Shown in pieces: positions 41,758 through 46,493 of a stretch of 64,000 nt of DNA. The position numbers were made by a program, and so were the translations under genes. The DNA comes from Erythrobacter rubeus. GTDB lineage: Bacteria; Pseudomonadota; Alphaproteobacteria; Sphingomonadales; Sphingomonadaceae. The DNA lies in the NCBI RefSeq assembly GCF_014705715.1, contig NZ_JACXLC010000001.1, forward strand, positions 478,457 to 542,456, written 5' to 3'. Under the pieces are notes generated by a model. That model did not search any database. It saw only the letters and a list, made by a program, of their open reading frames with translations, and was not told the origin of the DNA. The first letter of the stretch is position 1. Every line of letters starts with the position of its first letter.

Positions 41758-43457
41758 GCCGCGGCGTGCGCAGGCTGCATTGCGGAAATCGCGCTGTGGA
41801 GCGATTTCGCATCGGCCCGGGGCAAAGCGAGGAAACGGGCCTGCATCACATCCGCGAGGGCAGGCGCATCGGATCCAGGCCGGGCGGAGATATCGACCAC
41901 CAGTGCATCGATCCCCTCGCGCGCGATCGCCCTGGCGGCGGCTTCCGCATCTTCCCTGGCCTGCTTTCGTCCCGGCGATCCGTCGGCGGCGATGTTGCCG
42001 CGTCCGTCGGTGAGTATGACGAGGCTCGCGCTGCGCCCACGGGCGATTACGCTCTGGGCGGTTTCGCGCGCGGCGTTGAGCCCAATCGCGAGCGGCGTGC
42101 CTCCGCCACCTGGCAATTCCGCCAGCGCCCGGCGCGCCCGCGTCAGCGAGCGGGTGGGCGGGAGCAGAAGTTCGGCGCTGTCCCCGCGAAACGCGATCAG
42201 GGCCACTTCGCTTCTGGTGACGTAGGCCTGCGCGAGCATCAGCTCGACCGCGCCCTTTGCCTCGGCAAGGCGAGCGGCGGCAGCCGAGCCGGAGGCATCG
42301 ACGGCGAAGATCGTGACGCGGGCGGCCTTTTCCTCGAACCGGCGGACCCGCAAATCGTCTTTCCGTGTGAGGATCGCGCCGACACTTGCATCCGGCTGCT
42401 CTCGGCGGCGAACTTCCTGCCACGGCACTGCAGCGCGCAGTGTGTCGATGAGAGCAAGGCGCGCTCCGCCGCGCGGCATGCCGGGACGCGCGCTCAGCGG
42501 CTTTCCGCGGATGCCCGATTTGCGCCGCTGTCCCGATCCGCTTCCCGAAGTCTGGCGCGGTGCCTGCCCCTTCGCCAGCTGAGCCAGCAGGTCTGCCGGG
42601 ATCGCCGCCGAAGCGGCTTCGACCAGCATTTCATCGAGCGGCTGATCGGGGCGCTTCGTGTCGGTATCCCGCTGCTCATCTCCGCGATCCTGCGGCGGCT
42701 CGGGCGGTTGGCTTTCCTGCTGAGGCTCATCCAGTGGCGGCAGCTGGGTTGCTCGCGGCGCCAGCACCAGCCGGGCCGCAGCAGTAAGGTCGGCGTCAGA
42801 GGCTCGAGTCCTTCCCGAAAGAGCTGCATGGGCCCGCGCGGCCTGCCCGGCCGACATAAGCGGGCGCAGCGAGGGAACGCCCAGCACAGCAGCGGTCGCG
42901 GCCAAAGCTTCGAGCGCTTTGTCCTCGAGTGGTTGGACGGCATCGAGGTCAGGCGCGTGCGAGGCTTCCAGATCATCGGTGGTGGAAGCGCGCGAATGCG
43001 TCAGGTCGCAGTGGAACGCGCATCTTTCCATCAGGCTGACGGGCGGTGTGTCTTCGCGCTCTGCCCCATCGTCGAGGAGCACCAGCGCAAGGTCTCCGCG
43101 ATCGAGCGCCTGGGCGAGCCGGCCTGCGATCGCATCGCCAATTCGCTCTGCCATCGGCACGATCAGCAAGCCGCCTTTCGCTTCTTCCAGCAGTCCGGAT
43201 TGCTCGACCGGGCGACCTGCTGAAAGGCTTGCGGCGAGATCGATCCCGCCGAGCAGGCGCTCATCGTCGATATGGCCGGGAAGCTTGCGCGTCTTCGCAC
43301 GGTCGCCGAGCGCCGCGATCAGCGCGTCGCGCGCCGGGCTCGATCCGCGCAGCACTATCCCGCTGAACGATGCGGGCGCGATGAGGAGCAATTGCGCCGC
43401 GAGGGCGGCATCGTGGATGGGATCGGGCGCGGTCCCCAAAGACCCGCCCCCGGTCAT
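41754..43457 (-). CDS. bchD: Magnesium chelatase subunit D
   Basis: This 567-residue subunit has an N-terminal AAA+-like domain without a canonical Walker A. A Gln/Pro/acidic linker follows (about 245-285). The C-terminal von Willebrand A domain (about 370-567) has the MIDAS-type start FAVDASGSAAAARLAEAKGA and ending LVVDISARPGSDA. It forms the ring complex with BchI that drives Mg insertion by BchH. It has ATGA overlaps with bchI and bchO. Confidence 0.95.
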   Translation of the reverse strand: MTGGGSLGTAPDPIHDAALAAQLLLIAPASFSGIVLRGSSPARDALIAALGDRAKTRKLPGHIDDERLLGGIDLAASLSAGRPVEQSGLLEEAKGGLLIVPMAERIGDAIAGRLAQALDRGDLALVLLDDGAEREDTPPVSLMERCAFHCDLTHSRASTTDDLEASHAPDLDAVQPLEDKALEALAATAAVLGVPSLRPLMSAGQAARAHAALSGRTRASDADLTAAARLVLAPRATQLPPLDEPQQESQPPEPPQDRGDEQRDTDTKRPDQPLDEMLVEAASAAIPADLLAQLAKGQAPRQTSGSGSGQRRKSGIRGKPLSARPGMPRGGARLALIDTLRAAVPWQEVRRREQPDASVGAILTRKDDLRVRRFEEKAARVTIFAVDASGSAAAARLAEAKGAVELMLAQAYVTRSEVALIAFRGDSAELLLPPTRSLTRARRALAELPGGGGTPLAIGLNAARETAQSVIARGRSASLVILTDGRGNIAADGSPGRKQAREDAEAAARAIAREGIDALVVDISARPGSDAPALADVMQARFLALPRADAKSLHSAISAMQPAHAAA

Positions 43458-44455
43458 CCGAACAATTCATCGATGGCGCGGGTAATCCGCACGGTCGATC
43501 CGGTTTCGTCGAGCACGTCGCGCCGCAGCCTGTGCCGGAGCGCCGATGGCGCAACCGCGATCAGGTGTTCGCGCTTTACCGAGCGGGCGCCCTTTAGCGC
43601 AGCCAGCGCGCGCGCCGCCCGCATCAGGGTAAGCTCGCCGCGCAGGCCGTCTGCGCCGACCGCCATGCACAATTGCGCAGCATCTCTAAGCACATCTTCG
43701 CCCGGCTCCAGCTTGGCAAGCTTCGCCTTGCCGCGCGCGATCTGTTTGAGGATCTTGTCGTCCTGTTCCGCCCATTCCTTGGCGAAGGCATCGGGATCGC
43801 GTTCGTTCGCGGCGACCAGCCGCATGATCTCCACCCGCGTTTCAATGTCCTCAGGCGTGCGCACTTCGACCGAAAGGCCAAAGCGGTCGAGCAGCTGCGG
43901 GCGCAGTTCGCCCTCTTCGGGATTGCCGCTGCCGATCAGCACGAACTTCGCGCGGTGGCGAACCGAAAGCCCTTCGCGCTCAACCACGTTCTCACCCGAA
44001 GCCGCGACATCGAGCAACAGATCGACCAGATGATCTTCGAGCAGGTTGATTTCATCGATGTAGAGAAACCCGCGATGCGCTTTCGCCAGAAGGCCCGGCT
44101 CGAACGCCTTCTCACCCGCTCTCAAGGCGCGCTCCAGATCGAGCGAGCCGATCACACGGTCCTCAGTCGCGCCAAGCGGAAGGTCGACGAAAGGCACGTC
44201 CCGCTTGCGCACTCGGCCCGACGTGCACGGATCGGGGCAGGTGCCGCGCTCTTCCCCGGTGCAGCCATAGCGGCAATCCTCGATCGCCGAGATCGGGGGA
44301 AGCAGTCCGGCGAGCGCGCGCGCCGCGGTCGATTTGCCGGTGCCACGATCACCGAAGACCATGACGCCGCCAACACTGGGATCGACCGCCGCGATGAGCA
44401 GCGCCTGCTTCATCTCGTCCTGTCCGACGATTGCAGAGAAAGGAAACCTAGCCAT
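43454..44455 (-). CDS. bchI: Magnesium chelatase ATPase subunit I
   Basis: This 333-residue AAA+ ATPase has Walker A GDRGTGKST at residues 35-43 and Walker B FLYIDEINLLEDHLVDLLLD. The words FVLIGSGNPEEGELRPQLLDR and EVRTPEDIETRVEIM are also typical. It is the first gene of bchI-D-O-orf. Its start codon lies two bases from a 268-bp inverted-repeat element that supplies the whole 5' leader. The ribosome site visible there (AGGCT) is weak. Confidence 0.97.
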   Translation of the reverse strand: MARFPFSAIVGQDEMKQALLIAAVDPSVGGVMVFGDRGTGKSTAARALAGLLPPISAIEDCRYGCTGEERGTCPDPCTSGRVRKRDVPFVDLPLGATEDRVIGSLDLERALRAGEKAFEPGLLAKAHRGFLYIDEINLLEDHLVDLLLDVAASGENVVEREGLSVRHRAKFVLIGSGNPEEGELRPQLLDRFGLSVEVRTPEDIETRVEIMRLVAANERDPDAFAKEWAEQDDKILKQIARGKAKLAKLEPGEDVLRDAAQLCMAVGADGLRGELTLMRAARALAALKGARSVKREHLIAVAPSALRHRLRRDVLDETGSTVRITRAIDELFG

Positions 44456-44457
44456 TT

Positions 44458-44725
44458 AGAGCCTGTCCCTTGCAGGCAGTGACGCCTCGATTGCGCTGTG
44501 CAGTTTCGTGGTGAGGTGCGGCGCGAAGCGCAGACTGGTTGTCCGCTCGAGCGACGCAACGCTGCCACGGGACTGCACAGCGCAACCCCGACGGGGCGGG
44601 CCAATTTTGGCCCAGCGCTGCGTCGATCGTCGGTCACTATGCATTGGCATGGCTTCCTCCTCACTCCTTCCGCTGAGCCAAAATTGACTCCGTCAAGGCA
44701 TCACTGCCTGCAAGGGACAGGCTCT
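44458..44725. repeat. 268-bp element of three nested inverted repeats immediately upstream of bchI
   Basis: Outer arms at 44458-44490 and 44693-44725 match as inverted repeats at 31 of 33 positions, with the terminal 25 bp (44458-44482 against 44701-44725) perfect. Inside lie a second pair, 44493-44511 with 44565-44583 (17/19), and a third, 44598-44617 with 44671-44690 (17/20). The layout A-B-B'-C-C'-A' folds into a cloverleaf-like multi-branch structure. No ORF with family similarity was seen inside and no clear target duplication flanks it. A MITE-like non-autonomous element or a structured regulatory RNA are the options. Confidence 0.8.
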
Positions 44726-44781
44726 CACGGCTCTTGTGAACGCTGCCGCACGATTGGACAAGCGCCTCTGACGAATTGATG

Positions 44782-44799
44782 TGACAATTCGCCCTGACA
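44782..44799. promoter_or_regulatory. Degenerate PpsR-like site beyond the bchI-proximal repeat
   Basis: Read on the bchI strand the site is TGTCAGGGCGAATTGTCA: TGT-N12-TCA, one change from the PpsR consensus. It is 327 bp from the bchI ATG now, but would be only about 59 bp away without the 268-bp repeat. The match alone is weak. Confidence 0.35.
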
Positions 44800-44810
44800 C
44801 TCGGGGCCGG

Positions 44811-46493
44811 TCAGCTTTTCGCTATTCGGTTGAGCAGCAGCACGGGGAGCAAGCCTGCCGCCAGCAAGATCAGCGCCGGGATCGATGCCTCGACCAGCCG
44901 TTCGTCGCTGGCGAGGCGGTATGTGCGGGTGGCAAGCGTTTCGAGATTGAAGGGCCGCAGGATCAGCGTAGCGGGCAATTCGCGCACCGTGTCGATGAAG
45001 ACGAGCGCCGCCGCACCGACGAGGCTTGGACGCAGAAGTGGGACATAGATCCGGGTGAGCACTCGCGACGGGGTGGCTCCCAGAGACCTTGCAGCCGCAT
45101 CGAGCGATGGCGGTATCTTCGACAGGCCACCATCGATCGAATTGTACGCCACGGTGAGGAACCGGACCGACAGCGCGTAAATCAGGATCACGCTCGTCCC
45201 CGTCAGCAGCAATCCACCGCCATAGCCCAGATTGTCGCGGGCAAATCGGGTGATGCCGACATCGACAGCCCCGAGTGGTGCGAGCAATCCGACAGCGAGC
45301 AAAGCGCCCGGCAGAGCGTAGCCGAGCGTTGCAAAGCGGATGGCGACTCTTACTACCCCACTGTGCGACCGCGCCTTGGCAAAAGCGAGCACGAGCGCGG
45401 TGAGCAGGCAGGTGATTGACGTCGCAAGACCGAGCCAAAGGCTGCCGCTTGCATAGGTACCCAGATCGCCAGCAGCCTGAAGCGCCACGTCGCTGAAGGA
45501 TAGCCAGAGCAGGTGCGCCGCTGGGATGACGAAACCAAGCAACACCGGCAGGGTGCAGGCGAACGCCGCCCAGGCCTTGCCCATAGGCGAAAGCGCGATC
45601 AGCGGGCCATCATTGCCGCCCGAAAGCCCGTCCCGGCTGTCGCTCCGGCCCCTGCGGGTCGACGCCTCCAGCGCAATCAGTACGATGACGAAAACCAGCA
45701 TCATCGCGGCGAGTTTGAGCGCCGCCTGCTTGTCCCCCATCAGCAGCCAGCTACGGAATATGCCGGTGCTGAAGGTCGGGATCGCAAAATATTGCGCGAC
45801 CCCGAAATCCGCGAGCACCTCCATCAGGACCAGCGCCAATCCGCCAGCAATGGCCGGGCGCGCGGCGGGAACGGCCACCCTGACGAACGCTTGCCCGGGC
45901 GACGAGCCGAGGCTGCGCGCGGCCTTGAACTGTGCCTGGCTCTGTGCGGCAAAGGCCGCGCGGGCCAGCAGGTAGACATAGGGGTAGAGCACGATCCCGA
46001 GCACGAACGCGCCGCCGGTGAGCGAGCGTATTTGCGGGAACCAATACTCTCCCGCTTGCAGCGATGTGACCATGCGAAGGCCCGATTGAACAGGTCCGGT
46101 AAAGTCGAGCAGGTCGGCATAGATATAGGCCGCGATATAGGCAGGCACGGTCAGCGGCAGGACCAGCGCCCAGCTCAAAATGCGCCGTCCCGGAAAATCG
46201 GCCGCGCTGACCAGCCAAGCGCACCCCGTCCCGGTGACCAGCGCCAGTCCGCCCGCCAAAATCATCAGCAGCAGCGTGTTGCCTGCATAGCGCGGCAGCA
46301 CGGAGCCTGCGAGGTGCGATAGCGCCTCCATCCCTCCGCTTGGCGCGGAAAACAGGATCGCGGCGATTGGCAGGCCCGCAAGCGCGGCGACGAGGATGGT
46401 GAGCACCAGCCAGCCATCCGCGCGCGCGCCTCGCATCGAAGCGCGAGGCACGCTTGCTTCGGATGCATCAACTTGCCTAAGGCGGCTTACCAC
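44811..46493 (-). CDS. Iron(III) ABC transporter permease (FbpB type)
   Basis: This 560-residue protein is a duplicated BPD-transport permease with about twelve membrane helices. The two EAA-type cytoplasmic loops are visible as ARSLGSSPGQAFVRVAVPAA (about residue 195) and ARSLGATPSRVLTRIYVPLL (about 485). It forms the inner-membrane channel for ferric iron brought by the binding lipoprotein encoded at 47606. The start used is a GTG at 46493; an ATG at 46436 (MRGARADGW) is an alternative. It is divergent from the ATPase gene with about 32 bp between starts. Confidence 0.9.
   Translation of the reverse strand: MVSRLRQVDASEASVPRASMRGARADGWLVLTILVAALAGLPIAAILFSAPSGGMEALSHLAGSVLPRYAGNTLLLMILAGGLALVTGTGCAWLVSAADFPGRRILSWALVLPLTVPAYIAAYIYADLLDFTGPVQSGLRMVTSLQAGEYWFPQIRSLTGGAFVLGIVLYPYVYLLARAAFAAQSQAQFKAARSLGSSPGQAFVRVAVPAARPAIAGGLALVLMEVLADFGVAQYFAIPTFSTGIFRSWLLMGDKQAALKLAAMMLVFVIVLIALEASTRRGRSDSRDGLSGGNDGPLIALSPMGKAWAAFACTLPVLLGFVIPAAHLLWLSFSDVALQAAGDLGTYASGSLWLGLATSITCLLTALVLAFAKARSHSGVVRVAIRFATLGYALPGALLAVGLLAPLGAVDVGITRFARDNLGYGGGLLLTGTSVILIYALSVRFLTVAYNSIDGGLSKIPPSLDAAARSLGATPSRVLTRIYVPLLRPSLVGAAALVFIDTVRELPATLILRPFNLETLATRTYRLASDERLVEASIPALILLAAGLLPVLLLNRIAKS

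Follow-up and report, generated by a model that had tools for sequence, protein, structure and literature searches.

The window analyzed here, a stretch of 64,000 nucleotides from Erythrobacter rubeus, carries bchI on the minus strand, followed downstream on that strand by what we take to be a bchD-like gene and then by an alpha/beta hydrolase at the presumed bchO position. Directly in front of bchI lies a dense inverted-repeat element (Table 1). The original prediction had described three nested arm pairs (A, B, and C) ending two bases from the bchI ATG, and our inverted-repeat search found all three again at the same distance from the gene. We add a fourth, small hairpin (D), which makes the bchI element a four-way cloverleaf. 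Family comparison assigns the outermost A/T pair to a TA target site, so the mobile unit is trimmed to 266 nt, with the TA target present only on the bchI side in this copy. The reading frames that start inside these 266 nt have 64, 84, and 93 codons, and there is no transposase gene. The predicted fold of the bchI-sense strand has an energy of -181.7 kcal/mol (z -13.8), the opposite strand has a z of -9.4, and neither was equalled by any of 200 shuffles. On the bchI-sense strand, the loop region of hairpin C reads GAGGAGG-AAGCC-ATG, and this ATG opens the 64-codon leader frame.

Table 1. Features at and upstream of the bchI start, numbered by position in the window.
Feature	Positions	Strand	Basis and remarks
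bchI, Mg chelatase ATPase subunit	43454..44455	-	Mg_chelatase and AAA lid domains
TAA (target-site TA plus A), leader-frame stop abutting the bchI ATG	44456..44458	-	
64-codon leader frame (ATG to TAA), ending flush with the bchI ATG	44456..44650	-	
MITE copy, 266 nt, GAGCC...GGCTC	44459..44724	- (bchI-sense strand)	Arm search and family comparison
Arm A, outer terminal inverted repeat	44458..44490	+	Inverted-repeat search; A/A' pair over 33 nt with 94% complementarity; by eye, no mismatch in the outer 25 bp
Arm B	44491..44511	+	Inverted-repeat search, covariation; B/B' 21 nt, 90% complementary
Arm B'	44565..44585	+	Inverted-repeat search, covariation
Small hairpin D, CCCC-GAC-GGGG	44586..44596	+	Sequence, folding, covariation; missing from the original prediction
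Arm C	44598..44617	+	Repeat search 44602-44617; C/C' 16 nt, 94% complementary; sequence nearly invariant in family
Shine-Dalgarno-like GAGGAGG, 5 bases 5' of leader ATG, loop region of hairpin C	44656..44662	-	
Arm C'	44671..44690	+	Repeat search 44671-44686; sequence nearly invariant in family
Arm A', outer terminal inverted repeat	44693..44725	+	Inverted-repeat search
Far-side target dinucleotide, + strand TC (TA in most copies)	44725..44726	.	
Native promoter-like block CTTGTCC-N16-TCACAA	44734..44762	-	Conserved in relatives; putative promoter
TGTCAGGGCGAATTGTCAC, repeat upstream of promoter-like block	44781..44799	-	Kept in many relatives (by eye)

A genome search found a single full copy in the host, the other matches listed being its own arms or short chance matches. 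The search for further copies that the original prediction had proposed thus gave no second one at home, while a core covariance model matched in 43 of 114 genus genomes, host included, and in 66 of 296 genomes of the host's order (20 of 79 genera); its per-genome match counts include reverse-strand self matches. BLAST matched the element in 16 of 100 genomes, again including the host. An exact 21-base core pattern matched at least 114 stretches, and the titles among the matches listed were nearly all Sphingomonadales, mostly Erythrobacter, Porphyrobacter, Novosphingobium, Sphingopyxis, and Qipengyuania. The same 21-mer also occurs outside the order with no surrounding element, in a Psychrobacter sp. 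I-STPA10 contig (L050), as a chance match or a remnant. An exact arm search found none in viral contigs and none in plasmid records. Seven 108-base cores compared within one genome (G219) were 96-100% identical, four of them identical, which suggests recent spread of the family.

We assembled two sets of copies for comparison. The first comprised 116 pattern copies, of which 97 were kept after contig edges and weak arms were dropped; by placement these are 57 intergenic, 9 partial, 13 in a frame, and 18 at contig edges. The second was made up of 100 copies picked from the higher-scoring covariance-model matches listed, with 96 kept. The pooled 193 copies were reduced to 179 by removing duplicates, to 174 with clear ends, to 171 after further duplicates were taken out, and finally to 150 with 700-base flanks. 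The 23-nt Shine-Dalgarno/ATG consensus is matched with at most 8 mismatches in 84 of the 97 copies. A subfamily (L062, L074, L075, and L144) has a loop reading CTTGAAATA...TATTCC and lacks the Shine-Dalgarno/ATG.

Across 72 aligned copies, the four-helix structure is paired in 97.1% of 5183 base-pair cells, and 54 of 72 pairs show a two-sided change. Covariation reached 0.584; shuffling lowered it to 0.175 (sd 0.005) and sliding the partners to below 0.09. The copies are related to one another, and relatedness is dropped by the shuffles but kept by the slid-partner control. Since the same layout recurs with paired changes in 72 diverged copies, the architecture is beyond chance. Helices A and B remain paired across freely varying sequences, and helix C hardly varies. 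One-sided intermediates are scarce among the paired changes, a pattern that would also fit palindrome correction at replication. Mismatches, in + strand letters, were 43 A.C and 30 G.T in arm A and 17 A.C and 60 G.T in arm B, so that the two arms favor opposite RNA strands and the bchI-sense strand is not singled out. In five loci, Rfam gave no family at the gathering threshold, and a permissive threshold gave matches far below gathering scores; we reject a known RNA family on this basis.

The ends of the copies point to a particular transposase group. Counted in the 97-copy set only, because in the larger pooled set ends were picked with TA favored, TA occupies the left flank in 76 copies, the right in 70, and both in 62. 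At the third position outward, a pyrimidine is seen on the left in 89 of 97 copies, and on the right 84 of 97 have a purine, which gives the element consensus YTA-GAGC...GCTC-TAR. A DDE_3 (IS630-type) transposase matched at four loci in three genomes of a ten-genome set, and one of these loci, in Sphingopyxis indica, is a 1.05-kb element with TA-GAGCGTC ends. Relatives of this transposase were present in 39 of 296 order genomes, and 19 of the 30 IS630-type loci fetched had clear ends, reading YTA-GAG[CT], and elements of about 1.05 kb. When MITE arms were compared with 38 IS ends, 56 of 156 matched one of them at 20 or more of 26 bases (0.013% for shuffled arms). The arms of the bchI element match their best IS end at just 15-16 of 26 bases, and the host genome, when searched, had no matching IS630 transposase. 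Between the cores of 72 MITE copies and 19 IS630-type elements, matches spanned only 16-20 bases; the best had an E of 0.002 over 72 queries, and we take them to be due to chance. None of the 11 IS5-type (DUF4096) loci examined had TA-GAGC ends. One of the IS5-type loci (L198) has TA-GGGTCAGGACC ends 850 nt apart and shares GGGTC alone with a few MITE copies, which start with these bases. In Sphingopyxis indica, a second inverted-repeat pair (L203 214-1223; score 27 over 30 nt, 1010 nt apart, TAGGTGTTTAGTCCCAGC...) adjoins the IS630 element and is perhaps another insertion sequence. From these comparisons of copies and ends, we firmly assign the bchI element to a new IS630-type MITE family of about 266 bp with an unusual conserved cloverleaf.

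To place this copy in the history of the locus, we compared upstream regions of bchI, which is present in 84 genus genomes; 41 such regions were read. In 36 of 39 element-free loci, CTTGTC[CT]-N16-hexamer ends 8-11 bases 5' of the bchI ATG, and in the other 3 it is absent. If this block is the promoter, then the native bchI mRNA would be nearly leaderless. The block is intact beside the element, and the repeat upstream of it is of a TGTCA type that bears only a loose resemblance to PpsR/CrtJ-type sites. The element was present in 2 of the 41 loci, those of the host and of a second species (G389), and no further one was seen beside any bchI among the covariance-model matches listed for the genus.

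The related element in G389 occupies the same place in the same orientation. Aligned gap-free, the two agree at 84% of positions (73% for the next best 266-nt copy), and of their 90 shared pairs 8 have changed on both sides and 8 on one side. On the question raised with the original prediction, whether all relatives share one element with compensatory changes, the outcome is split: the element is absent from most relatives, yet its two bchI copies do show paired changes. An empty site is preserved in G104, which has CACAAGAGCCCGCAATGG where the window has CACAAGAGCCGTGA-element-TAAATGG. A 40-locus bchI tree places the host beside the empty G104 as its sister (support 100/99) and G389, in a different clade, beside the empty G111 (99/97). 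As both carriers are sister to empty species, at least two changes are needed. We read the two elements as probably separate insertions of one subfamily, with transfer or repeated loss as possible sources of the pattern. One ancestral insertion before bchI is not favored, because the carriers are sister to empty species in different clades. Taken together, the family, the ends, the target sites, the empty site, and the conserved cloverleaf indicate by comparison that a MITE almost certainly landed immediately 5' of the bchI ATG, separating it from the promoter-like block. The original prediction had left a MITE as one option, and the family, TA sites, IS630-like ends, and empty site all speak for it.

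Copies elsewhere are often found at gene ends. A long gene-like frame reaches the element boundary on 84 of 176 sides, and 48 of these frames end in TAG, which is composed of the TA target and the element's first G. Such a stop-codon side occurs at least once in 37 of 78 elements; of the other YTAR sites in those loci, 89 of 425 have one. Without the element, the G039 and G001 orthologues stop where G022 does with it, which gives a further empty site at a gene other than bchI (the gene end was readable in 3 of 12 loci). Many copies lie precisely within a stop codon, often where two genes converge, and yield TAG on both sides (for example, L046, L074, L086, and L097).

Start codons near the element were called with a crude gene caller. 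Of 150 distinct copies, 36 have a start codon no more than 15 nt from the left end (in bchI orientation) and 10 from the right end (binomial p 1.6e-4). At a limit of 3 nt, the counts are 12 and 2 (p 0.013), a class that was spotted in the same data before counting and was not planned in advance. Of the 12 left junction copies, 11 have an open, in-phase leader frame, compared to 27 of 114 copies without a near start (Fisher p 5.6e-6); dropping one of the two orthologous xerD-like loci gives 10 of 11 (p 1.7e-5). When the six closest relatives were taken for each junction copy, 32 distinct copies altogether, the frame was open in 13 of them (p 0.0025), so relatedness explains the excess in part but not as a whole. 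With the start 4-15 nt away, the frame is open in 8 of 24 copies against the same 27 of 114 (p 0.23), which limits the excess to direct junctions. At the right end, 4 of 10 near copies have an open frame, as does neither of the two junction copies (L143 and L329).

The junction sequences include TAAATG, TGAATG, TAATG, TGATG, and CAATGA, and three junction genes (L284, L327, and L344) start with GTG in the crude calls. The domain test covered seven proteins, six of them from junction genes, with L137, L327, and L344 outside the tested set. Pfam domains above the cut-off were found in five non-bchI junction genes (pyruvate kinase, PBP transpeptidase, Hpt, integrase, and TrkA_N), and L284 was sub-threshold. 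A further locus (L151) combines a TAATG junction with a YjeF_N domain, but its flank is too short for counting. Two species of the genus have the element at one xerD-like integrase gene, each with a TGATG junction (L286 and L294); it was apparently inherited, and the pair would serve for testing constraint. At bchI itself, we found the features of a coupled leader, namely a stop/start junction, an open upstream frame, and a Shine-Dalgarno-like site. Substitutions by codon position were 1257/1201/1316 in the family and 10/12/10 between the two bchI copies. The leader peptide is thus not conserved, and selection, if any, acts on the openness of the frame rather than on the peptide. A protein-coding small gene was rejected given the missing codon-position signal and a frame that is shut or out of phase in most copies.

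On balance, we consider it probable that the locus as a whole is best explained by a MITE insertion that acts as a translational hand-off leader for bchI; for the hand-off taken separately, which we read from the sequence features above, the chances appear slightly better than even. Transcription from the native promoter would start at or near the element, making it the entire bchI leader. This would agree with the claim in the original prediction that the element forms the whole 5' leader, which fits the conserved promoter-like block just upstream. The outer helix would close directly before the bchI AUG and hinder direct ribosome entry; ribosomes would load instead at the Shine-Dalgarno-like sequence and the AUG within hairpin C's loop. 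By translating the 64-codon frame through the remaining arms, they would open the outer helix, stop at the TAA, and restart at the adjoining bchI AUG. The leader peptide would be a by-product, with only an open, in-phase frame mattering. The rewired bchI control that had been suggested is thereby narrowed to a translational hand-off. More tentatively, and at somewhat less than even chance, we propose that the family is selfish and carries a portable hand-off (a ribosome-entry hairpin plus a frame ending at its own TA target) that creates a stop/start junction in front of an ATG and restores the stop when it lands in a YTAR stop codon, so that host genes, bchI at least twice among them, may have become dependent on the element for translation.

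The main competing explanation is a plain insertion in the spacer, tolerated with bchI expression lowered or unchanged and the reading frame unused. This draws support from a family whose placeable copies are mostly intergenic (57 of 97) and often at stop codons, whose leader peptide is not conserved, whose frame retention at 4-15 nt from a start is at background level, and which occurs at just 2 of the 41 bchI loci read. However, neither the orientation bias around start codons (36 versus 10) nor the frame retention at junctions (11 of 12) would be expected from it, and we consider it rather unlikely. In a second alternative, the element would bring its own outward promoter or a protein-binding site, which would be reflected in the near invariance of the C stem, beyond what pairing needs; for Neisseria elements, PMC2229807 describes an IHF site as well as putative promoters. 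Yet no sigma-70-like promoter was found at 44400-44900, in a weak scan that also misses the native block, and that native block stands intact beside the element, so we regard a mobile promoter or operator as improbable. Least probable is a regulatory structured RNA, of the riboswitch or thermometer type, selected at bchI itself. The original prediction had left a structured RNA open, and the part of it that stands is a strong fold kept by paired changes, with a common layout and 8 two-sided changes between the two bchI loci; on the other hand, five loci gave no Rfam family at the gathering threshold, 39 of the 41 bchI loci read are without the element, and copies occur at unrelated sites.

Comparable elements are known in other bacteria. 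The repeat unit of pneumococcus (RUP), a 107-bp element with 9-bp ends for which mobilization by IS630-Spn1 has been proposed, is like the bchI MITE family in being short, lacking a transposase, and having IS630-like ends and a TA target, and the account of it in PMC2229807 notes no other signature of structure or function. The bchI family differs in its length (about 266 bp), its ends of about 32 bp, its further hairpins, and its conserved Shine-Dalgarno-like site and ATG. ERIC and Correia (NEMIS) elements also have TA at their ends and fold strongly; according to their description in PMC2229807, they are transcribed and proposed to act on neighboring mRNAs, with orientation mattering for ERIC and with mRNA stability via RNase E or RNase III as the action described. 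The MITE family is set apart from that description by its signal, a reading frame that meets the next start codon. Within the same order, the IS630-family elements (L203/L207, L209, L211, L213, and L236) share the YTA-GAG[CT] ends and TA sites but carry a DDE_3 transposase, unlike the MITE family. In the open-access literature, we found no MITE paper for Erythrobacter or Novosphingobium, none on IS630 with Sphingomonas, nothing linking miniature inverted-repeat elements with translational coupling, and nothing on the Erythrobacter bchI promoter.

The MITE family provides a large data set for paired change in palindromic arms. If the proposed hand-off is true, then the family would be a transposable element that is harmless at both edges of a gene, rebuilding stops at gene ends and passing ribosomes on at gene starts, and it would offer a directly testable case of transposons providing translation signals. 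It would also mean that the first committed enzyme of bacteriochlorophyll synthesis has come under an acquired mobile leader, probably twice independently.
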